DNA of 64,000 nucleotides, taken from assembly GCF_009711165.2 (NCBI RefSeq), contig NZ_WMID02000030.1, forward strand, positions 1 to 64,000, given 5' to 3'. The position numbers and the translations under genes were made by a program. The notes below the pieces were generated by a model. That model saw only the letters and a program-made list of their open reading frames with translations, was not told the origin of the DNA and searched no databases. This document shows, piece after piece, positions 18,822 through 29,887 of the stretch (position 1 is its first letter; each line of letters begins with the position of its first letter). This DNA comes from Flavobacterium sp. MC2016-06. Lineage in GTDB: Bacteria; Bacteroidota; Bacteroidia; Flavobacteriales; Flavobacteriaceae.

Positions 18822-19211
18822 ATGAAAACTTCAAGAAGCACCACAGCAAAGACGGCCGTTACAGAGATTCTTAGCAAATCTAAAGCGGCGCTTTCGCACA
18901 GTGAAATTTACAAACTAACGGCAGATTTATGCGACCGTGTTACGATTTATAGAATACTAGATCGTCTTTTAAATGACGACATCGTGCACAAAATTGTAGA
19001 TCTTGACGGAACGGTAAAGTATGCAAAATGCCACCATGCACATCCTGTTACCATACACAATCATGCTCATTTTAGTTGTGAAAACTGCCACGAGATTACG
19101 TGTCTTGAAAGTGTAAAACCGAGTTACATTATTCCGCACAATTATAAAGTTAATGACATCAATTTTACATTGTCTGGATTGTGCCCGAATTGTTTAAATT
19201 CTAACATTTAA
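18822..19211 (+). CDS. Fur-family transcriptional regulator (possibly Zur-like)
   Basis: A 129-residue Fur-fold repressor. The winged helix includes the recognition segment RVTIYRILDRLLNDDIVHKI. The dimerisation half has two CxxC pairs, SCENC (Cys86, Cys89) and CPNC (Cys121, Cys124), which form the structural zinc site, and histidines in HHAHPVTIHNHAH that could form the sensing site. The His-rich segment and small size resemble Zur/Mur-like members more than classical Fur. It diverges from merC with two palindromes between them. Which metal it senses is not decided by the sequence. Confidence 0.88.
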   Translation: MKTSRSTTAKTAVTEILSKSKAALSHSEIYKLTADLCDRVTIYRILDRLLNDDIVHKIVDLDGTVKYAKCHHAHPVTIHNHAHFSCENCHEITCLESVKPSYIIPHNYKVNDINFTLSGLCPNCLNSNI

Positions 19212-19212
19212 G

Positions 19213-19230
19213 TTTTAGACTTGTCTAAAA
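19213..19230. promoter_or_regulatory. MntR/DtxR-type operator upstream of mntH
   Basis: TTTTAGAC-TT-GTCTAAAA: two perfect 8-base arms, two-base centre. It lies about 28 bases upstream of the -7 element TATATTTG of mntH (19259-19266), near the -33 region. The palindrome also precedes the TonB receptor (17298-17315), and the mntR gene follows mntH. Confidence 0.7.
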
Positions 19231-19258
19231 ATATTATTGAGCGAATGTAATTTTTCTA

Positions 19259-19266
19259 TATATTTG
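19259..19266 (+). promoter_or_regulatory. mntH -7 promoter element
   Basis: TATATTTG matches the TAnnTTTG consensus and ends 19 bases before the mntH start codon, leaving a short leader. Confidence 0.6.
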
Positions 19267-19285
19267 GTAAATCAATATTTTTACA

Positions 19286-21166
19286 ATGACCAAATCTTTA
19301 GAAGAAGTTAACCAATCGGTTGCTACAGAGCATAAAAAAACAGGTTTTAGAAAAATTTTAGCCTTCTTAGGCCCAGCATATTTAGTAAGTGTAGGATATA
19401 TGGATCCAGGAAACTGGGCCACAGATATTGCTGGCGGAAGTCAGTTTGGCTATACTTTAGTATGGGTTTTATTAATGAGTAACCTGATGGCTCTGCTCCT
19501 TCAGAGCTTAAGTGCCCGCCTCGGAATTGTAACACAGCGCGATTTGGCACAGGCTTCTCGAGAAACATATTCTAAGTTCATCAATTACATTTTGTACTTT
19601 TTGGCCGAAATTGCGATTGCGGCCTGTGATTTGGCAGAAGTGCTGGGAATGGCTATTGGAATTAATCTATTATTTGACATTCCGCTTATTGAAGCCGTTA
19701 TAATTACAGTCTTAGATACATTTATACTCCTTTTCTTGATCAACAAAGGAATTCGTAAAATGGAAGCTTTTATAATTGCTTTGGTCGCGATTATTGGCTT
19801 CTCTTTTATTTTTGAAATGATTTTTGCGGAACCGGAAATGCATAAGGTTTTTGCCGGACTTATTCCTTCTATTCCAAATTCTGCTGCTCTATATATCGCA
19901 ATCGGAATTATTGGTGCTACGGTAATGCCGCACAACTTATACTTACACTCTTCTTTGGTGCAGACTCGAAAATTCGACAGAACTCCTGCTGGAATCAAAC
20001 AAGCGTTAAAATACAACTTCATCGATTCTACAATTGCTTTAAATCTGGCGTTTTTTGTAAATGCTGCGATTTTGATTCTTGCTGCTGCGACTTTTCATAA
20101 AAATGGAATGTTTGAGGTAGCGGAAATTCAAGATGCTCATAAATTTTTAGAACCCATGTTAGGAACCAAATGGGCTCCTGTTTTGTTTGCTGTTGCATTG
20201 ATTGCTGCCGGACAAAGCTCAACGGTTACGGGAACTTTGGCTGGACAAATTGTAATGGAAGGTTATCTGCATTTACGTATTCAGCCTTGGGTACGTAGAA
20301 TTATAACCCGCTTAATTGCTATTGTTCCTGCAGTTATTGTGATTTTAATTTATGGGGAAAGCGTAACTGGGAAATTATTGATTCTGAGTCAGGTTATTTT
20401 GAGTTTACAATTAGGTTTTGCTATTATTCCGCTAATTCATTTTGTGAGTGATAAATCTAAAATGAATGGTTTTCATATTTCTAAAACTACACAAGTTGTT
20501 TCTTGGATTATTGCTGCAATCATTGTTTCATTGAATGCAAAATTAGTTTACGATGAAATTAATTCTTGGCTTGAAAGTTCAAATCATCCAATACTGCTTT
20601 GGCTTACGGTTGTTCCGCTTGCTTTCGGATTCTTGGCTTTACTGCTTTACATTATTGCAAAACCATTTATTGCCAAAGCAAAAGACAAAATGATAAACCA
20701 TTCACCTCATCATTTGAAATTGCAATTTTCACCAAGAGAAAGTAAAAGTATTCAAAACATAGCTGTTTCGGTCGATTTTTCTAAAGCGGATGAAGCTGCA
20801 CTAAACAAAGCCTTTGAATTGGGCGGAATTGACACGCAGTATACTTTAATTCACATTGTAGAAACCGTCGGCGCATTGATCTATGGCGTTAATGTACACG
20901 ATCATGAAACTACTATTGACGAAAAATTACTATTAGAATACAAACAAATGCTTTCGGAGAAAGGTTTCAAAATCGAAACACAGCTTGGTTTTGGCAAACC
21001 AAACAAAGTAATTCCGAAAATCATTAACGAAGGCAATTTTGATATTTTGGTTATGGGAACGCACGGTCACACTGGTTTAAAGGATATTCTTTTTGGCACA
21101 ACAGTAGACAAACTGCGTCATAAAATTTCGATACCTTTGTTGATTGTTAAATGTGCGGAGCTATGA
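19286..21166 (+). CDS. mntH: Nramp divalent-metal transporter fused to a universal stress protein domain
   Basis: A 626-residue fusion. The first ~480 residues are an Nramp/MntH transporter: DPGNWATDIAGGSQFGY in TM1 (metal-binding Asp and Asn) and MPHNLYLHSSLVQTR in TM6 (metal-binding Met), about 11 membrane segments. The last ~135 residues form a cytoplasmic UspA domain with strand IQNIAVSVDFSKADEAALNK and the nucleotide-binding loop VMGTHGHTGLKDILFG. Nramp proteins usually stop near 410-450 residues, so the Usp domain is an addition that may sense ATP or stress. It imports Mn(II) and perhaps Fe(II). The operator 19213-19230 and the mntR gene downstream support manganese control. Confidence 0.93.
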   Translation: MTKSLEEVNQSVATEHKKTGFRKILAFLGPAYLVSVGYMDPGNWATDIAGGSQFGYTLVWVLLMSNLMALLLQSLSARLGIVTQRDLAQASRETYSKFINYILYFLAEIAIAACDLAEVLGMAIGINLLFDIPLIEAVIITVLDTFILLFLINKGIRKMEAFIIALVAIIGFSFIFEMIFAEPEMHKVFAGLIPSIPNSAALYIAIGIIGATVMPHNLYLHSSLVQTRKFDRTPAGIKQALKYNFIDSTIALNLAFFVNAAILILAAATFHKNGMFEVAEIQDAHKFLEPMLGTKWAPVLFAVALIAAGQSSTVTGTLAGQIVMEGYLHLRIQPWVRRIITRLIAIVPAVIVILIYGESVTGKLLILSQVILSLQLGFAIIPLIHFVSDKSKMNGFHISKTTQVVSWIIAAIIVSLNAKLVYDEINSWLESSNHPILLWLTVVPLAFGFLALLLYIIAKPFIAKAKDKMINHSPHHLKLQFSPRESKSIQNIAVSVDFSKADEAALNKAFELGGIDTQYTLIHIVETVGALIYGVNVHDHETTIDEKLLLEYKQMLSEKGFKIETQLGFGKPNKVIPKIINEGNFDILVMGTHGHTGLKDILFGTTVDKLRHKISIPLLIVKCAEL

Positions 21167-21179
21167 GCTATGAGTTATA

Positions 21180-21245
21180 AATTATGAGTTATGAGTTTTT
21201 GAAACTTGAAACCTGGAACTTGAAACTTGAAACTTTAAAACTCCA
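21180..21245. repeat. Short direct repeats GAGTTATGA and GAAACTTGAA
   Basis: Between mntH and mntR, copies of GAGCTATGA/GAGTTATGA are followed by four near-copies of GAAACTTGAA/CCTGGAACTTGAA. The same GTTTCAAGTTTCAGG-type sequence occurs at 33290-33362 and 33935-33984, so it is a dispersed family. Confidence 0.7.
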
Positions 21246-21264
21246 AACCTTATTATCTTAAAAA

Positions 21265-21918
21265 ATGACTTTCTCAGAAGAAAACTACTTAAAAGCGATA
21301 TACCATCTTACTGCTTCTCTCGAAACAGAAGTAAGTACTAATTCTATTGCCGAAATGATGGAAACCAAAGCTTCATCGGTTACGGATATGTTGAAAAAAC
21401 TATCGGATAAAGGTTTGGTTAATTATAAAAAATACCAAGGTGTTTCTTTGACGGAAAACGGAAAACTTGCTGCAAAAATGATTGTTAGAAAACACCGTCT
21501 TTGGGAAGTGTTTTTGGTAGAAAAATTGAATTTTTCTTGGGATGAAGTTCATGATATTGCAGAGCAGTTAGAACACATCAAATCGGAACAGTTGATTAAC
21601 CGTTTGGATGATTTTCTTGGAAACCCAACAGAAGATCCTCATGGCGACCCGATTCCAGATGCAAACGGACGTATTGTAAAAATCGAAAAACAACTGCTTT
21701 CTGAATTAGAAGAAGGTCAAGTAGGCGTTTGTGTTGGCGTAAAAGATACTTCTTCGGAGTTTCTGAAATATCTAGACAAACAAGAAATTGCTTTGGGTTC
21801 TAAAATTGAATCTATTTCTAAAGAATCTTTTGATTTGTCTTTAAAAATCAAAGTTGACAATAGAGAATTGTCTATTTCTAATAAAATTGCTTCTAACTTA
21901 TTTGTAAAATTGGTTTAA
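21265..21918 (+). CDS. mntR: MntR/DtxR-family metal-dependent repressor
   Basis: A 217-residue DtxR-type regulator: N-terminal helix-turn-helix (MTFSEENYLKAIYHLT, then TKASSVTDMLKKLSDKGLV), a dimerisation region with metal-ligand residues (RKHRLWEVFLVEKL, HDIAEQLEHIKSE, DPHGDPIPD) and a C-terminal SH3-like FeoA domain (QVGVCVGVKDTSSEFLKYL). It lies 98 bases after mntH on the same strand, separated by short repeats. With the operators at 19213 and 17298 it forms a small candidate regulon with mntH and the TonB receptor. Iron rather than manganese could be the corepressor. Confidence 0.88.
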   Translation: MTFSEENYLKAIYHLTASLETEVSTNSIAEMMETKASSVTDMLKKLSDKGLVNYKKYQGVSLTENGKLAAKMIVRKHRLWEVFLVEKLNFSWDEVHDIAEQLEHIKSEQLINRLDDFLGNPTEDPHGDPIPDANGRIVKIEKQLLSELEEGQVGVCVGVKDTSSEFLKYLDKQEIALGSKIESISKESFDLSLKIKVDNRELSISNKIASNLFVKLV

Positions 21919-22228: not shown

Positions 22229-23626
22229 TTAAAGTGAATTTATAAATGCTAGCAAATCTTCTCGTTCTGTAGCGCTTAACTTTTTGTACTTGTCTTTTGC
22301 TTTCTGTGCTTCGCCTCCATGCCAAAGAATGGCTTCTTCAACATTTCTAGCTCTACCGTCATGCAATAAGTTAGTATGTCCGTTTACCGTTTTAATCAAT
22401 CCAATTCCCCATAAAGCAGGAGTTTTCCATTCAGAACCTGTAGCTTTAAAATCAATTGCGTTGTCGGCTAAACCAGCGCCCATATCGTGCAGTAAAAGAT
22501 CGGTATAAGGACGAATAGTTTGATTTCGCAATACTTCAATCGGATGTGTATTTCCTGTTTGAATTTTAGGAATATGACAACTTGTGCATCCAATGGTCTC
22601 AAATGATTTTTTCCCTCTCAATACATTTTGATCGGTATAATTTCTACGTCCCGGAACTGCCAATGTACTTGAATACACAACCATTCGGTCTAAATTTATA
22701 TCTGTAATTTCTGGTTCGCCTCCGTTTGGAATCGCAGTTAAATCTACGCCCGCTGGACCACTTTCAAAAGGAAACAAACTCGAAGTAATTCCCATATCTC
22801 CAGATAATGCACCTGCAACCTGCTGTTTGATATTAGGCTGATTGGCTTTCCATCCAAATCGACCCATCTTTGTTGAGTTTGATGCAAAGTCATATACATA
22901 ATTTGGTCTTCCAGAAATACCGTCTCCGTTAGTATCGTTTTCATCGGCAAAACCTAAAATGGTGCTTTCTGAAATGGCTTCCAACAATCCCAAACCAATA
23001 ATTTGATTCGCAATTCTAGGTGACATCTGCACAGTGGCCAAAGGACCATAACCTAAATTGGTAATCGTATAAATTGGTTTCTGCAAAGTAACTACAGTTC
23101 CATCGTCTAAAGTTTCAGTTATTGGCTGATAGCTGATGGTAAATTGACCTTCGGCAGTTTGTCCTAAAATAGCATGATCTTGCAATTGTCCACCATAAAT
23201 AGGATCTGTAAAACCAATACCGTTTGCATCCTGTCCACCAATTGTGAAACGGAAAAGTAATCCCGCTCTATCTTCACCATCAAACAATGGCGGTCTTCCG
23301 CGTCCGTCTTTAAAGTGACAGCTTGAACAAGAATGAGCATTAAAAAAAGGCCCTAAACCATCTCGCGCCGTTGTAGAAGAAGGAGCTGAAACCCAGCTTT
23401 GTCTAAAAAATGAATTTCCGACACCAAAATCAGACTGTTGATCAAATGTAAGCGTTGGAGCAAAAAAACCAAAGGCTTCTTCACTGGTATTAAAAACGGT
23501 TGTTTCTCCACCAGAAAACTGCTCTCCATCCTCAGCCGTCAGCGGCATATAACTATCGTCGCTATCACTACAACTTTGAAGTGTAAAACAAACAATAACA
23601 AATAAATAGACTCTTAAATTCTTCAT
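22229..23626 (-). CDS. Di-heme oxidoreductase lipoprotein (COG3488 / DUF1111 type)
   Basis: Start chosen at ATG 23626, which gives a lipoprotein signal ending FTLQSC. The 465-residue protein has two c-type heme sites, CSSCH (in FNAHSCSSCHFKDGRGRPP) and CTSCH (in GCTSCHIPKIQTGN). Distal parts such as FRFTIGG, RPYTDLLLHDMG and EWKTPALWGIG match the predicted thiol oxidoreductase family found with imelysins. In many proteobacteria this gene sits in a fixed cluster with two imelysin genes (COG3487-COG3488-COG3489). It faces the periplasm. It probably transfers electrons to or from iron; the real reaction is unproved. Confidence 0.85.
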   Translation of the reverse strand: MKNLRVYLFVIVCFTLQSCSDSDDSYMPLTAEDGEQFSGGETTVFNTSEEAFGFFAPTLTFDQQSDFGVGNSFFRQSWVSAPSSTTARDGLGPFFNAHSCSSCHFKDGRGRPPLFDGEDRAGLLFRFTIGGQDANGIGFTDPIYGGQLQDHAILGQTAEGQFTISYQPITETLDDGTVVTLQKPIYTITNLGYGPLATVQMSPRIANQIIGLGLLEAISESTILGFADENDTNGDGISGRPNYVYDFASNSTKMGRFGWKANQPNIKQQVAGALSGDMGITSSLFPFESGPAGVDLTAIPNGGEPEITDINLDRMVVYSSTLAVPGRRNYTDQNVLRGKKSFETIGCTSCHIPKIQTGNTHPIEVLRNQTIRPYTDLLLHDMGAGLADNAIDFKATGSEWKTPALWGIGLIKTVNGHTNLLHDGRARNVEEAILWHGGEAQKAKDKYKKLSATEREDLLAFINSL

Positions 23627-23690
23627 CGTATATACAGAAAAAGTGCTCCGCAAAGGAACACTTTTTGTTTTAATTTTTCAATACTATTGA

Positions 23691-24866
23691 TTACCCATTA
23701 ACGGTTACACCAATTTTTGTAGCTCCCGCAAGTAAATTCTGTCCAAACACAATTAATTGTGCAACAGCAACTTTCACTTTTGCTCCTTCTACAGAAGTTG
23801 GTCCGCCTGAAATTGCTAAATCAAAAGGAATCAAAATAGCAGCCACTTTAGTAGTTGAAGCTGTCATTGCAGTTTCTGTATCGGTAAAAGTTGCAGCATC
23901 TGCTTGTTTTACTAAATCTTCTAAAGAAGGTCCGTCAATAGATCCGTATTTTCCTTGATATACATCAATAACACCTTGTAAATTTAAAGCGATATCTCTG
24001 TGCGTATTATCACTAAAGCAAGAATGCTCGTCTTCTTGATTTGCATTTTCTACCGCTGTGTTCATACGCTCAATTGGCAATTCAGTTGTAACTAAAGTTA
24101 CAATTCCTAAATACATATTTTGAAGCGCTTCACTTTCAGGCATAGCCAAAAATTTAGTTCTGTAAACACCGCCAACTTTCCATTGTTGTACTAAATAATC
24201 TAAATTATCAGTCAATAAATCAGCACACATTTTTAAATAATCAGCTCTTCTACCTTGGTTAGAAGCAGTTCCACCCGTTTTTAAATAATCTGTGTAAGGT
24301 CTTTGTCCAGGCAATTTTGCAGAAGGAGCTGTTAAATCTTGTCCCCACAACAAAAATTCGATTGCGTGATATCCAACACTAATGTTTTTTTCGTCTTCGT
24401 CTAATCCGTTTTCATCGATTAAGATTTGTTTAGACAATGTTGGGAATGCAGTTGTATTGTTTATGATACCAGCATTTGCATCACCGTCAACATAATCAAT
24501 AAAGTTTTCGTCTAATGGCCAAGAATTTATTAGTCCTTCGGGTCCGTTGTCATCACCATCAATTGGTCCGTTTGCAAAACGAAACGCTTCAGTAGTTCCG
24601 TAACTTTCTCTAGAGTTTTTCCAAGCTGTTTTTGCAGCTGTAAAATTAGCGTCTGTTGGGGTAGCAGTAAAAGTTGTGATTGCAGTTTCTAAAAGAACAG
24701 CATCATCATACGCTTTTTTGTAATTAGCATAAACGATATCTGCATAATTTGCAATTACTTCTTTTTTAGTAACATTAGATGATCCATTATTATCATCACC
24801 ATTACAGGCAAAAAAAGTCATTCCAGCAAATAAAGCCAAAGCAACTTTTGGATATAGGTTTTTCAT
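23691..24866 (-). CDS. Imelysin-family lipoprotein, IrpA type
   Basis: A 391-residue protein with lipoprotein signal ALALFAGMTFFAC and the imelysin motif VGYHAIEFLLWGQDL (GxHxxE), the proposed metal-binding site. Its C-terminal half (SCFSDNTHRDIALNLQGV, QLIVFGQNLL) resembles IrpA (COG3487), an iron-regulated periplasmic protein. It precedes the di-heme gene on the minus strand (38 bases upstream after the chosen start) and diverges from the second imelysin gene. The region between them has two TATTTAGAA-type palindromes. Peptidase activity once claimed for the family is not supported by the motif; iron binding is more likely. Confidence 0.9.
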   Translation of the reverse strand: MKNLYPKVALALFAGMTFFACNGDDNNGSSNVTKKEVIANYADIVYANYKKAYDDAVLLETAITTFTATPTDANFTAAKTAWKNSRESYGTTEAFRFANGPIDGDDNGPEGLINSWPLDENFIDYVDGDANAGIINNTTAFPTLSKQILIDENGLDEDEKNISVGYHAIEFLLWGQDLTAPSAKLPGQRPYTDYLKTGGTASNQGRRADYLKMCADLLTDNLDYLVQQWKVGGVYRTKFLAMPESEALQNMYLGIVTLVTTELPIERMNTAVENANQEDEHSCFSDNTHRDIALNLQGVIDVYQGKYGSIDGPSLEDLVKQADAATFTDTETAMTASTTKVAAILIPFDLAISGGPTSVEGAKVKVAVAQLIVFGQNLLAGATKIGVTVNG

Positions 24867-24873
24867 ATTGTTT

Positions 24874-24892
24874 TATTTAGAACAGTTAAATA
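24874..24892 (-). promoter_or_regulatory. Possible iron-type operator, imelysin gene leftward
   Basis: TATTTA-GAACAGT-TAAATA, an imperfect palindrome just downstream of the minus-strand -7 element TACATTTG (24898-24905). Position after the -7 element suggests repression. Confidence 0.45.
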
Positions 24893-24931
24893 TAGCGCAA
24901 ATGTAAGCGTTTTCAGCACCTTAGCAAATTT

Positions 24932-24977
24932 TATTTAGAATAAATATGCATAAGTTTGATTCGCTTTTGTATTTTTG
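24932..24977 (+). promoter_or_regulatory. Promoter and possible operator of the rightward imelysin gene
   Basis: A -7 element TATTTTTG at 24970-24977 lies 18 bases before the ATG. About 24 bases upstream is the perfect palindrome TATTTA-GAA-TAAATA (24932-24946), which shares TATTTAGAA with the site at 24874. The two probably serve one regulator for both halves of the divergent cluster. Confidence 0.5.
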
Positions 24978-24994
24978 ACAAAATTTACATCAAA

Positions 24995-26113
24995 ATGAAG
25001 AAACTTATTTTCCTTTTAGGCTTAATTACCACTATAATAGCCTGTTCATCAGGAGGTGATGGTGATTCGAATACAAATGGCAATAATTATGACAGAGCTG
25101 CACTTTTAACAAACTGGGCAGATAATATTATAATTCCGAGTTATGAAAATTATCAAGCAAAAGTCGCAGCCTTAGTGACAAATGCAAATACTTTTACAAC
25201 TACTCCTACCGAAGCCAATTTACAAACCCTAAGAACAAGCTGGTTTGAAGCTTACAAAGCGTATCAATATGTGGCACTTTATGGTTTTGGCAAAGCCGAA
25301 GAAACTAGTTTTAAAGAAATTTCTAATACCATTCCAACAAGTACAAGCGGTATTGACGCTAATATTTCTTCAGGAAGTTACAACCTAGATTTACAGGCGC
25401 AATTTGCTAAAGCTGGTTTACCTGGTTTAGATTATCTGCTTAATGGTTTGGGTGCAAATGATACAGTAATAGTTGGATTTTACACTACTAATGCTAAAGC
25501 GGCAAACTATAAAGCTTACCTAACCGCAGTTACAGCAAAACTAAAATCCGCTGTAGACGTAGTAGTAACGGACTGGAAATCTGGTTTTAGAGACAGCTAC
25601 GTAAAAAACACAGGAACATCTGTAAGCGGTGCAGTAAATATTACGACTAACAATTTTGTAAAAAATCTTGAAAAAGACATTAGGACCATAAAAGTTGGAA
25701 TTCCTGCTGGTCTTTTCTCAAATGGTGTAAAATATCCTGAAAAAACAGAAGCGTTGTTTAAAGGAAATGCTTCAAAAGAATTACTAACGATTTCGATTCA
25801 AGCACATCAGGATTTCTTTAACGGAAAACATTTTGGATCAGCAACCACGGGACCAAGTTTAAAAACCTATTTAGATTTTGTAAATGCTGTACGCGACGGT
25901 CAAAAACTAAGTGATTTAATCACTGCTCAATATACCGCAATTGCAACTACAAATGCTAATCTAAACAGCAGTCTTGCCGATCAGATTAATACTGATAATA
26001 CTAAAGTTGTTGCTTCTTACGATGCTATTCAAAAAAATGTTCTTTATACCAAATTAGACATGATGCAAGCGCTAAACATTTCAATCGATTATGTTGATGG
26101 CGATGGCGACTAA
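24995..26113 (+). CDS. Imelysin-family lipoprotein, COG3489 type
   Basis: Start chosen at ATG 24995, giving a lipoprotein signal ending TTIIAC and 372 residues. The sequence is alpha-helical with an imelysin core: SWFEAYKAYQYVALYGFG, GLPGLDYLLNGLGAND (the counterpart of the GxHxxE region, with the His replaced by Pro-Gly-Leu) and AHQDFFNGKHFG. The lost His/Glu suggests that this paralogue is a partner of the IrpA-type imelysin and not the metal-binding subunit. It is followed two bases later by the HTTM/VKGC-like gene and then the TonB receptor, forming one operon. Confidence 0.85.
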   Translation: MKKLIFLLGLITTIIACSSGGDGDSNTNGNNYDRAALLTNWADNIIIPSYENYQAKVAALVTNANTFTTTPTEANLQTLRTSWFEAYKAYQYVALYGFGKAEETSFKEISNTIPTSTSGIDANISSGSYNLDLQAQFAKAGLPGLDYLLNGLGANDTVIVGFYTTNAKAANYKAYLTAVTAKLKSAVDVVVTDWKSGFRDSYVKNTGTSVSGAVNITTNNFVKNLEKDIRTIKVGIPAGLFSNGVKYPEKTEALFKGNASKELLTISIQAHQDFFNGKHFGSATTGPSLKTYLDFVNAVRDGQKLSDLITAQYTAIATTNANLNSSLADQINTDNTKVVASYDAIQKNVLYTKLDMMQALNISIDYVDGDGD

Positions 26114-26115
26114 GA

Positions 26116-27483
26116 ATGAAAAATAAGCTTACAAAATATTTAAACAAAAATACATCTGCCGCGACGCTAGCCTTTTTTAGGCTGGCGTTTGGTTTAATGA
26201 TGCTTTTGAGTTTGATTCGTTTTTTAAGTTACAACTGGGTTGAGAAATTTTATATCGAACCGCTTTTACATTTTACTTATTATGGTTTTGAATGGGTAAA
26301 ACCTTTTGGAACTGCAACTTACATCTTGTTTCTTATAGCAATACTTGCATCAATCTGCATTTCGATTGGGTATCGTTTTAAATTGGCTTCGGTATTGTTT
26401 TTCCTAAGTTTTACTTATATCGAATTAATGGATAAGACAACCTACCTCAACCATTACTATTTTATTTCGATCATAAGTTTTGTCTTGATTTTTTTACCTG
26501 CAAATGCTTATTTTTCAGTTGATGCTTATCTGAAGCCAAAAATTGCTTTTGAGAAAATCCCACGCTGGACAACCGATATTTTAAAAGTCCTTTTAGGAAT
26601 TGTATACTTCTATGCAGGTTTAGCCAAAATAAATTCTGATTGGCTTTTAAAAGCAATGCCTCTAAAAATCTGGCTTCCCAACAATCATACTTTGCCCATT
26701 ATTGGAAGTTTATTAAATGAAAACTGGGTTCATTTTGCTTTTAGCTGGACGGGAATGTTTTACGATTTGAGCATTCCGTTTCTATTGCTTTATAAACGAA
26801 CTCGCACTTTTGCTTTTATATTGGTGGTTGTTTTTCATCTTCTAACGAGAATCTTATTTCCGATTGGCATTTTCCCATATGTCATGATTGTGAGCTCTTT
26901 GCTTTTCTTTGACAGCAATTTCCATAAAAATTGTCTTAATTTCATAGCCCGATTATTTCATTTGAATTTCAATATCTTTGAAAACGAAAAAGAGATAAAA
27001 ACTTCATTTAATGCATTTTACAAAGCAAAAATGATAGTCTTAAGCGGGTTTTTAATATTCCAATTAGTATTTCCTTTTCGATATCTTCTTTATCCGCAAG
27101 AATTATTTTGGACAGAAGAAGGTTTCCGTTTTTCGTGGCGCGTCATGCTCATGGAAAAAGCCGGATATACACAATTTACAGTAACTGACAGTAAAACCAA
27201 AAATCAGATTAGAGTTAATAACGGTCATTTTCTAACTGCTTTTCAAGAAAAACAAATGGCTTTTCAGCCCGATTTTATATTAGAATACGCCCACTTTTTA
27301 CATAATTATTATCAAAAACAAGGCATAAACGATCCCGAAGTCCGCGTAGAAAGCTATGTTGCACTCAACGGACGTTTGAGCAAATTATATATTGACCCGA
27401 ACATAAACCTCGCTAAAGAAAATGAATCATTCCAGCACAAAACTTGGATCTTACCTTTTAACGATGAAATTAAAGGATTTTAG
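26116..27483 (+). CDS. HTTM-domain membrane protein, vitamin K-dependent gamma-carboxylase-like
   Basis: A 455-residue membrane enzyme. HTTM region with about five helices: ATLAFFRLAFGLMMLL, DKTTYLNHYYFISIISFVL (as in GGCX) and YFYAGLAKINSDWLLK. Lys171 in GLAKINSDW aligns by eye with human GGCX Lys218, the catalytic base. The C-terminal part (FRFSWRVMLMEKAGY, FQPDFILEYAHFL, INDPEVRVESYVALNGR, IDPNINL) matches the lumenal domain of GGCX. The vitamin K2 cofactor is present in flavobacteria. It lies between an imelysin and a TonB receptor gene. Carboxylation of a metal-binding neighbour is a guess; epoxidation or another reaction is equally possible. Confidence 0.82.
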   Translation: MKNKLTKYLNKNTSAATLAFFRLAFGLMMLLSLIRFLSYNWVEKFYIEPLLHFTYYGFEWVKPFGTATYILFLIAILASICISIGYRFKLASVLFFLSFTYIELMDKTTYLNHYYFISIISFVLIFLPANAYFSVDAYLKPKIAFEKIPRWTTDILKVLLGIVYFYAGLAKINSDWLLKAMPLKIWLPNNHTLPIIGSLLNENWVHFAFSWTGMFYDLSIPFLLLYKRTRTFAFILVVVFHLLTRILFPIGIFPYVMIVSSLLFFDSNFHKNCLNFIARLFHLNFNIFENEKEIKTSFNAFYKAKMIVLSGFLIFQLVFPFRYLLYPQELFWTEEGFRFSWRVMLMEKAGYTQFTVTDSKTKNQIRVNNGHFLTAFQEKQMAFQPDFILEYAHFLHNYYQKQGINDPEVRVESYVALNGRLSKLYIDPNINLAKENESFQHKTWILPFNDEIKGF

Positions 27484-29887
27484 TTTCATCCTCTTTTTTC
27501 TCTTTTCATTAAATGCCTTTTCTCAGACTCATATTTCGGGAGTTCTTATGGGAGAATCTGGCGAAAAACTGGCTTATGCAGAAATCTACAATAAATCGAA
27601 CGCAAGTAAAACAATAACGGACAAAGAAGGAAATTTTGACATTACCCTTTCTGCTTCAGGAACTTATACTCTTGTTTTTTATAAAGACAATTATTCGGTT
27701 TTAGAACAAGAGATTTCAGCTCCAAGTTCAAATTTGACGATTACTTTAAACAAAATCACCAATTTATCTGAAGTTGTCATTAAAAATGAAAAAGAAAAAA
27801 TATTCGCACTTCATAAACTAAAAGACATTGAAGGGACAGCAATTTATGCGGGTAAAAAAACGGAAGTTATTTCTGTAGAACAACTTACAGCCAATAAAGC
27901 CACCAATAATCCGAGACAAATTTATGCTCAGGTTGTGGGTTTAACAATTAATGAAAGTTCCGACGGAGGTTTACAGTTAAGTGTTGGCGGACGCGGTTTG
28001 GATCCAAATCGAACGGCAAATTTCAACACGCGCCAAAACGGTTACGATATTAGTGCCGATGTTTTGGGTTATCCCGAAAGTTATTACGCAACACCAACAG
28101 AAGCACTTGAAGAAGTTCAGATTGTACGTGGCGCTGCATCTTTACAATACGGAACGCAGTTTGGCGGTTTAATCAATTTCCAAATTAAAAGTCCGAGTAA
28201 AAAACCAATCGAATTCTTAACCCGAAACACGATTGGTTCTTACGGTTTGTATACTAATTTTTCCAGCTTGAGCGGTACAAAAGGCAAATTCAGCTATTAT
28301 ACGTTTTTCAATTATAAGAAAGGTGGCAGTTTTAGACCGAACTCAGATTTTGAAAGCAAGAGTTATTTTGGTAATCTAAACTATCAGTTTACAGAGAAAA
28401 CTTCTTTACATTTTGATTATACTCATTTCGATTATCTAGCGCAGCAACCTGGCGGATTAACTGATGAAATGTTCAACCAAGATCCTTCTCAAAGTAACAG
28501 AACTCGTAACTGGTTTGCCGTAAACTGGAACTTATTTGCACTTCGACTCAATCATCATTTTGATAACGATGCCGATTTTTCGTTACAGTTATTTGGTTTA
28601 GATGCCAGCAGAAATACAGTTGGTTTTAGACCCAACCGCGTTGCACAAGCAGATCCGGGCGGACAACGTGATTTAATTAAAGGCGATTTTGTCAATTGGG
28701 GAGCAGAAGCGCGTTATTTAAAAAAATATAATATTGGCAGTAATTCAAATGCTTTCTTAATTGGAGCAAAATACTATCAGGCAGAAAACACCGGGCTTCA
28801 AGGTGCTGGAAGTTCTGGAAACGATGCTAATTTTAATTTGGCTTCCGCCGAATTTCCAGGATATCCAAATCAATCAAATTTTAAATATCCGAATTTGAAT
28901 GTTTCCCTTTTTGGAGAAAACATCTTCAAAATAAATCAGAATTTCTCGATTACACCCGGCTTTAGATATGAAAACATCAAAACGCAGGCAGACGGAACAT
29001 ACCAAAAAATTAATCTTGATGGTGCTGGAAATGTTATTTTAGACGAAACTGTTGTTGAGAATATAGTCAAAAAACGTAATTTCTTTTTATTTGGGGTTGG
29101 ATTAAGTTATAAACCGCAAAACGGAATAGAGTTCTACGGAAACGTGTCGCAAAACTACCGTTCGGTAACTTTTAATGATATTAGAACCGTAACTACAAGT
29201 CAGATCATTTCACCAGACATTACAGATGAAAAAGGATATACCTCTGATATTGGTATTCGAGGTCAGATAAACGACAAAATTAGGTTTGATTCGAGTATTT
29301 TTGGTTTATACTACAATGACAAAATTGGAGAATACTTTACCGAAGTCGATGCTAAGTCTGTCAGCATAAGAGATAATCTAGGAACTGCTTTTACTTATGG
29401 CTTTGAAACTATGGTAGATTGGAGTTTAAACAAGACTTTCTTTGAAGAAAATCCTAATATAATCTGGAATGTCTTCTCGAATGTCGCGATTACAAATTCT
29501 AAGTATTTAAAATCTGCTATTCCAAACATTGAAGGCAATGATGTAGAGTTTGTTCCTCTTTTTAATATTAAAACGGGAACTGGAATTGGTTATAAAAACT
29601 TCATGTCGAGTATTCAGCTTACTTATGTATCATCGCAATTTACCGATGCGACTAACCAAGATGTGGGAACAAATGCCATAAGCAGTGGTATTTTTGGTAA
29701 AATTCCATCTTATTACGTAGCCGATTTTTCGTCTTCTTATAAATGGAAAAATTGGAAACTAGAAGCCGGTATTAACAATTTTACTGATAATAAATATTTC
29801 ACCAGACGCGCCACAGGATACCCTGGGCCTGGAATTATTCCATCGGACACTAGAACTTTTTATACTACTTTAGAATTTATTTTCTAA
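27464..29887 (+). CDS. TonB-dependent receptor (FecA-like)
   Basis: Start chosen at ATG 27464: this gives signal peptide DFSFILFFLFSLNAFSQ and a 20-base overlap with the VKGC-like gene, so the two are translationally coupled. The 807-residue protein has a carboxypeptidase-like N-domain to about residue 110, a plug (TEVISVEQLTANKATNNPRQ, LQLSVGGRGLDPNRTANFN, EVQIVRGAASLQYGTQFGG) and a barrel ending YTTLEFIF. Similar receptors are annotated as Fe(3+)-dicitrate importers. In this operon it probably takes up an iron chelate that the imelysins then handle in the periplasm. Confidence 0.9.
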   Translation: MKLKDFSFILFFLFSLNAFSQTHISGVLMGESGEKLAYAEIYNKSNASKTITDKEGNFDITLSASGTYTLVFYKDNYSVLEQEISAPSSNLTITLNKITNLSEVVIKNEKEKIFALHKLKDIEGTAIYAGKKTEVISVEQLTANKATNNPRQIYAQVVGLTINESSDGGLQLSVGGRGLDPNRTANFNTRQNGYDISADVLGYPESYYATPTEALEEVQIVRGAASLQYGTQFGGLINFQIKSPSKKPIEFLTRNTIGSYGLYTNFSSLSGTKGKFSYYTFFNYKKGGSFRPNSDFESKSYFGNLNYQFTEKTSLHFDYTHFDYLAQQPGGLTDEMFNQDPSQSNRTRNWFAVNWNLFALRLNHHFDNDADFSLQLFGLDASRNTVGFRPNRVAQADPGGQRDLIKGDFVNWGAEARYLKKYNIGSNSNAFLIGAKYYQAENTGLQGAGSSGNDANFNLASAEFPGYPNQSNFKYPNLNVSLFGENIFKINQNFSITPGFRYENIKTQADGTYQKINLDGAGNVILDETVVENIVKKRNFFLFGVGLSYKPQNGIEFYGNVSQNYRSVTFNDIRTVTTSQIISPDITDEKGYTSDIGIRGQINDKIRFDSSIFGLYYNDKIGEYFTEVDAKSVSIRDNLGTAFTYGFETMVDWSLNKTFFEENPNIIWNVFSNVAITNSKYLKSAIPNIEGNDVEFVPLFNIKTGTGIGYKNFMSSIQLTYVSSQFTDATNQDVGTNAISSGIFGKIPSYYVADFSSSYKWKNWKLEAGINNFTDNKYFTRRATGYPGPGIIPSDTRTFYTTLEFIF

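Follow-up and report, generated by a model that had tools for sequence, protein, structure and literature searches.

A vitamin K carboxylase-family membrane protein paired with an imelysin lipoprotein in Bacteroidota operons

The classic imelysin cluster of Pseudomonas aeruginosa, PA4370-4373, comprises the imelysin ICMP, a di-haem protein and PA4372 (PMC3143127; this and the other papers cited by PMC number are drawn on for the part of their content that was available). A 64,000-nucleotide stretch of Flavobacterium sp. MC2016-06 (contig NZ_WMID02000030.1; the window) carries at 22229-29887 a locus matching these parts, with a di-heme protein (DHOR), an IrpA/ICMP-type imelysin (ImA) and a second imelysin (ImB), in which ImB is followed by a membrane protein of the vitamin K-dependent gamma-carboxylase (VKGC) family and a TonB-dependent receptor. 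Its relatives differ from the classic cluster in that most of the best 80 related loci consist of ImB with a DUF4856 protein, the VKGC and the receptor, without DHOR or ImA. EfeUOB shares the imelysin fold, ImB resembling EfeO weakly (Foldseek E 0.05), but here the place at the inner membrane is taken by a member of the VKGC family, and no EfeU/Ftr1 permease was found among the Pfam matches of the window operon.

Human GGCX, whose residue numbers are used below for all VKGC proteins, resembles the bacterial protein in the order of its HTTM and lumenal domains and in K218, H160, N159, W223, F286, F299 and G259. It differs in that the bacterial C-terminus is about 250 residues shorter, K217 is replaced by Ala, position 436 is not Arg, three further positions carry N158L, N290T and M401V, and the bacterial gene stands in an iron operon without a known propeptide or gamma-carboxyglutamate (Gla) substrate. 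To our knowledge, the role of bacterial members of this family is an open question. A VKGC behind an imelysin suggests quinone chemistry serving iron acquisition, perhaps via an altered lipoprotein. In Riemerella anatipestifer, the consecutive locus tags RAYM_09779-RAYM_09789 carry the annotations TonB receptor, VKGC and imelysin, and iron limitation raises all of them (PMC5609570, Table 4); we compared this set with ours by annotation only.

Within its available part, PMC5609570 was the sole paper found that joins an imelysin with a vitamin K-dependent carboxylase, the genes appearing there as table rows, and our literature search found no paper describing receptor, VKGC and imelysin as a unit. 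The search, which covered few subscription papers, returned nothing joining imelysin with HTTM, or the HTTM domain with Bacteroidetes or iron, an F. columnare iron paper contained none of five terms looked for, and the R. anatipestifer CH-1 iron RNA-seq paper mentions neither an imelysin nor a carboxylase. The context of F. psychrophilum FP1487 may show part of the arrangement (PMC3143127, Figure 8, an image that was not viewable). BfpR of F. psychrophilum was rejected as the same locus, lying downstream of asd in the available part of PMC9331221, as was the R. anatipestifer receptor B739_1343, whose paper names neither an imelysin nor a carboxylase, nor HTTM. The VKGC subfamily that the sequences suggest, one devoted to an iron operon with an imelysin, would be new. 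One sharply defined subfamily tied to iron acquisition, with a constant partner, a regulatory signal, named residues and a natural paralogue control, makes the existence and purpose of a bacterial carboxylated protein directly testable; if carboxylation is indeed the activity, it would be a new route to an iron-binding protein, with the family then seen to be active beyond the calcium-binding proteins of animals.

The conserved imelysin-VKGC-receptor unit

The initial annotation had described a five-gene iron cluster in which a GGCX-like membrane protein follows the second imelysin and overlaps a TonB receptor. All five genes were found at 22229-29887 and Pfam agrees with their assignment (Table 1). 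The VKGC frame starts 2 nt past the ImB stop, and the receptor, counted from its likely ATG, overlaps the VKGC by 20 nt, the figure of 62 nt in the list of open reading frames (ORFs) being due to an upstream ATG. Because of the 2-nt gap and the receptor ATG inside the end of the VKGC gene, ImB, VKGC and receptor appear to share a transcript. The opposite strand carries ImA and DHOR, upstream of ImB.

Table 1. Features of the Flavobacterium sp. MC2016-06 locus, in window positions
Feature	Positions	Strand	Remarks
DHOR, di-heme protein, 465 aa	22229..23626	-	PF06537, 344 bits; likely ATG 23626; optional neighbour
ImA, imelysin of IrpA/ICMP type	23691..24866	-	PF09375, 214 bits; GxHxxE motif (GYHAIE); optional neighbour
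Fur-box-like site, ATTTAGAATAAATATGCAT	24933..24951	+	agrees with the R. anatipestifer consensus of PMC5609570 at 15/19 positions; ImB ATG 43 nt downstream
ImB, imelysin, 372 aa	24995..26113	+	PF09375, 81 bits; likely ATG 24995; lipoprotein-type signal; C-terminus DGDGD
VKGC-family membrane protein, 455 aa	26116..27483	+	HTTM 10-268; lumenal domain 304-451
TonB-dependent receptor, 807 aa	27464..29887	+	PF00593, PF07715, PF13715; likely ATG 27464

A PF22777 match was present in 25 of 60 related genomes, with VKGC neighbourhoods of two kinds. In a tree of 34 clade I proteins, 18 clade II proteins and human GGCX, the last forming a long branch, a split with support 99/97 sets the imelysin-linked clade I apart from the other sequences. 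The conserved core around clade I consists of ImB, VKGC and TonB receptor, in most cases preceded by a DUF4856 lipoprotein, with DHOR and ImA optional. In a first set of 11 clade I loci (L032-L042) the VKGC lies beside ImB and a receptor in all but L036, which has a short VKGC frame and gave no ImB; the VKGC is split over two frames in L042, and the receptor precedes it in L041. Nine of these loci have an upstream gene of one family (371-438 aa), three scanned members of which are DUF4856 (PF16148), and the DHOR-ImA arrangement of the window recurs only in L034. The best 80 related loci came from a scan with one genome per species, a set that favours clade I because only the best relatives were retained. 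ImB lies immediately upstream of the VKGC in 76 of them (median gap 10 nt), the receptor adjoins it in 76, and DUF4856 is within the locus in 72 and DHOR in 10. The five genes of the window did not, therefore, hold up as a conserved set, DHOR and ImA being optional; the conserved unit is DUF4856-ImB-VKGC-TonB receptor. The four loci without ImB immediately upstream are L067, where the VKGC match starts near the contig start, L098, with the order ImB-receptor-VKGC and a VKGC identical to that of L041, and two Roseivirga loci (L113, L114) with DUF4856-VKGC alone, no ImB or receptor beside them and ImB elsewhere in both genomes. Besides the DUF4856 type, the ImB-VKGC pair also occurs with the classic DHOR-ImA-ImB type (L145, L147, L152, L153, L174 and others), and in L152, L153 and L174 no DUF4856 occurs within the fetched stretch. 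The pairing thus spans more than one ImB lineage, which makes the classic-type ImB usable as a control.

The DUF4856 lipoproteins that lead most clade I operons (e.g. L033:4748-5959, L066:6591-7829) carry a MEHxWDE-type motif, and their predicted fold is mostly helical and confident (predicted local distance difference test, pLDDT, 89.6), with no clear match in the Protein Data Bank. No DUF4856 match was found in the genome of the window, nor in the control genomes, though Pfam detects the family in relatives.

Co-occurrence was counted by searching 294 Flavobacteriales genomes, selected with a completeness filter of 95, with a clade I profile (E <=1e-140) and PF09375. Clade I VKGC was present in 57, and in all 57 a co-oriented imelysin gene directly precedes it, with 62-305 nt between domain edges. 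Imelysins were found in 59 genomes, only G038 and G170 lacking a clade I VKGC (Fisher p 5e-59, shared ancestry ignored), so that the link to imelysins expected by the initial annotation extends to other genomes. G170 (L151) offers a natural deletion: its operon reads DUF4856-ImB-receptor, and neither there nor elsewhere in the genome did a VKGC match appear at E 1e-10. A phylum sample of 392 Bacteroidota genomes, not independent of the order sample because genomes overlap, gave 73 VKGC loci with an adjacent imelysin in 72 genomes, and 21 of its 93 imelysin-bearing genomes were without a VKGC-adjacent imelysin. Two strong VKGC matches in this sample stand without an adjacent imelysin, one in G452, which lies at the end of a contig and has part of an ImB immediately before it, and one in G427, to which we return below. 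The ImB-VKGC pair is not due to chance, as it is conserved across many Bacteroidota.

Catalytic residues and substrate chamber of the VKGC proteins

The window VKGC, the sole HTTM match in its genome, matches HTTM (PF05090) with 274 bits and the VKGC lumenal domain (PF22777) with 197 bits (curated cut-offs 27.7 each) and aligns with human GGCX across residues 4-448 of its 455 (E about 4e-43), confirming the assignment as GGCX-like. The catalytic-lysine context said to be kept is kept in part: GLAKINSDW aligns with human GVKKLDADW such that K218 is retained, whereas K217, assigned to substrate coupling in GGCX (PMC12589487), is Ala. In window numbering, K171, H113, N112 and A170 correspond to K218, H160, N159 and K217, respectively. 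K218, H160 and N159 are present in the window protein and in 104/104 distinct clade I proteins, and among human GGCX, these 104 and 18 clade II proteins, each of at least 400 aa, 13 residues are invariant (N159, H160, Y162, Y211, K218, W223, G259, D263, F286, F299, P378, W399 and Q433). PMC12589487 identifies K218 as the base of GGCX, N159 and H160 as the residues holding the Glu side chain, and F286, F299, W223 and G259 as the lining of the quinone site.

Three positions are fixed in clade I and different in most of clade II, N158L, N290T and M401V, by the criterion of at least 98% fixed in clade I and differing in at least 85% of clade II. Human GGCX shares the clade II residue at all three, N290 and M401 being kept in 18/18 and N158 in 16/18 clade II proteins. 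The L158/T290/V401 signature recurs in 28 of 29 further VKGC rows (two of them re-fetches), L202 stopping before position 401. In the GGCX structure, N158 lies by the backbone of the substrate, N290 in the tunnel for the isoprenyl chain and M401 between the pockets for quinone and Glu (PMC12589487), and since the three changes fall at these catalytic-chamber positions, the chamber appears altered in clade I. Position Y395 is Tyr or Phe, and so not fixed, in clade I vs His (16) or Gln (2) in clade II. We read clade I, from its residues, as having a working quinol site together with a substrate chamber altered in the imelysin-linked clade.

Clade II shares the catalytic residues of clade I but differs in its surroundings. 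In 12 of its 18 loci (L043-L060) one gene family directly precedes the VKGC, a scanned member of which is an FAD synthetase/riboflavin kinase (ribF-like), and phmmer searches with the window proteins found neither imelysin nor receptor at these loci. The Flavobacterium clade II proteins (L043-L054) stand directly behind the ribF-like gene with complete catalytic residues and no substrate candidate recognised alongside. Their chamber (N158, N290, M401) is closer to that of GGCX, yet has His at Y395.

Iron control and the possible modification of ImB

A scan for the 19-bp R. anatipestifer Fur-box consensus (PMC5609570), covering the 200 nt ahead of the first ORF and its initial 30 nt, gave at least 15/19 matches in 92 of 103 operons vs 50 of 1121 control regions that precede other genes of the fetched loci. 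The window site scores 15 and is weaker than most, the mode of its relatives being 16; a 16-mer overlapping it (24930-24945) has 15 window matches with 3 mismatches allowed vs 11.3 expected and is not rare. In R. anatipestifer the gene set with the receptor, VKGC and imelysin annotations rises 2.1- to 3.1-fold on iron limitation. Speaking against simple Fur control, a fur mutant with iron is only 1.4- to 1.9-fold over wild type for this operon, which stands outside the Fur boxes tabulated, and outside the four promoters tested by electrophoretic mobility shift assay, in the available part of PMC5609570. The Fur-box enrichment and this iron response together make iron control of the operon well supported, in keeping with the iron link proposed at the outset, and direct Fur control likely.

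The partner of the VKGC, ImB, exceeds the Peptidase_M75 cut-off of 23.5 clearly (PF09375, Table 1), and its model (pLDDT 90.8) matches 3pf0 best (Foldseek E 2.9e-8, TMt 0.82). The ImB positions E239 and E265 discussed below are numbered in a 385-aa frame. The GxHxxE motif of the ICMP/IrpA families was not found in ImB, which has GxxxxD (G154-D159); the motif closest to it is the GxxxxE given for the IPPA family (PMC3143127). Its DxDGD tail (window 26096-26113) is near-invariant and predicted disordered, residues 382-385 having pLDDT <50. The C-terminus is xDGD in 101/102 VKGC-linked and 13/13 other ImB rows, and Psychrobacter 3pf0 ends in DGD; in a further set, the imelysin of L170 and the linked ImB of L174, which has one extra residue, end otherwise. 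As the tail is found in proteins away from the VKGC, it is a property of ImB, possibly a binding tag or metal site, and was rejected as a VKGC-specific mark.

On a 48-row ImB tree the VKGC-linked label needs 6 changes. Among classic-type ImB, E239 and E265 are both kept in 13/13 VKGC-adjacent vs 6/17 non-adjacent proteins among those fetched (Fisher p 3e-4), adjacency being judged inside the fetched stretch (flank 1.5 kb for the L179-L208 set). In six genomes (L092, L107, L148, L149, L150, and L039 with L144) the VKGC-adjacent ImB keeps E239/E265 and the other copy has lost at least one of them; P127, K366 and G290 are likewise more variable in unlinked ImB. We take E239/E265 as a suggestive mark of VKGC dependence, a lead and not proof.

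Most likely, then, clade I is an imelysin-dedicated, menaquinol-dependent VKGC subfamily. The operon would be an iron-responsive system of iron acquisition from the outer to the inner membrane: the receptor would import an iron complex, the lipoprotein ImB (with DUF4856 in most relatives) would handle it in the periplasm, and the VKGC would act on ImB using menaquinol and the K218/H160/N159 machinery. Menaquinone should be available, as had been anticipated, MenA being encoded in the genome of the window. The VKGC would most likely be a carboxylase, the carboxylate added to acidic side chains building or tuning a metal site. The gene unit, its conservation, the clade, the retained catalytic residues and the Fur-box enrichment are direct findings; an active quinol enzyme, ImB as its substrate and a carboxylated product are inferred. 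We give a probability of roughly 0.4 to a modification of ImB by the VKGC in the form of a carboxylation. The fuller proposal, that clade I is a physiological bacterial protein carboxylase of its imelysin partner and makes a Gla-like or beta-carboxy-aspartate iron-binding protein, with E239, E265 or the acidic DxDGD tail as candidate sites and with N158L, N290T and M401V marking a change of substrate, we regard as doubtful.

Several observations weigh against this operon model with carboxylation of ImB. Position 217 is Ala in 104/107 clade I rows (Cys or Ser otherwise), with Lys missing from the 18 clade II rows as well, position 436 is Gln, and so not Arg, in 105/107 clade I rows (Met or Glu in 4/29 further rows), and Y425 of GGCX is not conserved in the bacterial proteins. 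With N158L, M401V and mostly Gln at R436, Glu-pocket positions are changed in clade I. VKOR (PF07884) occurs in 15/57 clade I genomes vs 90/294 overall, and the one VKOR match in the genome of the window, a 539-aa frame on another contig (L165:2172-3791), is unlinked to the cluster; as its distribution does not follow clade I, VKOR is doubtful as recycling partner and nothing points to a classical vitamin K cycle, although such a partner does not strictly define a gamma-carboxylase. According to PMC4555120, none of the bacterial VKOR proteins examined until then reduced the epoxide. Conserved acidic positions are scattered in ImB, DUF4856 and receptor, and no Gla-like dense Glu cluster was seen among them in these three families; no carboxylated residue has been seen. 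The fur mutant of R. anatipestifer retains the iron response (2.7 to 2.9; PMC5609570), which speaks against a simple Fur reading. ImB-type proteins also occur without an adjacent VKGC, and the G427 protein (L167:8915-10285), a clade I VKGC with L158/T290/V401, stands alone without imelysin, DUF4856 or receptor alongside, its ImB lying elsewhere with DHOR and ImA. The E239/E265 pattern is held to a lead because its loss needs just 3 events on the ImB tree, the positions were chosen post hoc from the data, and the ImB of G170 keeps both without a VKGC match; L145 and L147 likewise keep both residues in both ImB copies.

The alternative that survives best, possible if on the unlikely side, is a quinol-dependent VKGC that carboxylates nothing and instead reduces ferric iron or modifies a chelator or haem in the periplasm, ImB delivering the substrate. 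It would fit the retention of catalytic and quinone-pocket residues alongside changes at the Glu-pocket positions N158, M401 and R436, and the finding that no epoxide recycler tracks clade I. Among the conserved genes no other membrane-spanning inner-membrane family was identified, by family assignment without transmembrane prediction. Imelysins are almost always accompanied by a haem peroxidase in PMC3143127, yet DHOR is present in just 10 of the best 80 loci, so the VKGC may fill the redox slot. Against it, a search limited to Pfam gave the VKGC no metal- or haem-binding site. Residues of the K218/H160/N159 type are atypical of reductases. In GGCX they are the residues of base-driven carboxylation (PMC12589487), which speaks against this alternative.

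That the substrate of the VKGC, as carboxylase or quinol enzyme, is DUF4856 or the receptor, with ImB a mere neighbour, appears improbable. The Roseivirga loci with DUF4856-VKGC alone and the receptor adjoining the VKGC in 76 of the best 80 loci would agree with this view, but both Roseivirga genomes have ImB elsewhere, the VKGC-ImB pairs of L152, L153 and L174 have no DUF4856 in the fetched stretch, and the genome of the window has no DUF4856 match (with the reservation on the controls given above). A non-catalytic docking or permease-like VKGC replacing EfeU is very improbable: although no other known inner-membrane family turned up among the conserved genes of the operon and outer-membrane imelysin operons lack the EfeU permease (PMC3143127), docking has no need of the 13 positions, K218, H160 and N159 included, that human GGCX and both bacterial clades share without exception.

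Neighbouring genes in the window

DHOR we liken to COG3488. ImA matches the ICMP structure 7xrx with E 1.1e-58. Adjoining the cluster, window 18822-21918 encodes a Fur-family regulator (weak match), an Nramp transporter and a DtxR/MntR-type repressor and is, judged by these predicted products, a metal-homeostasis neighbourhood. The Nramp metal transporter (626 aa) is fused to a universal stress protein domain.

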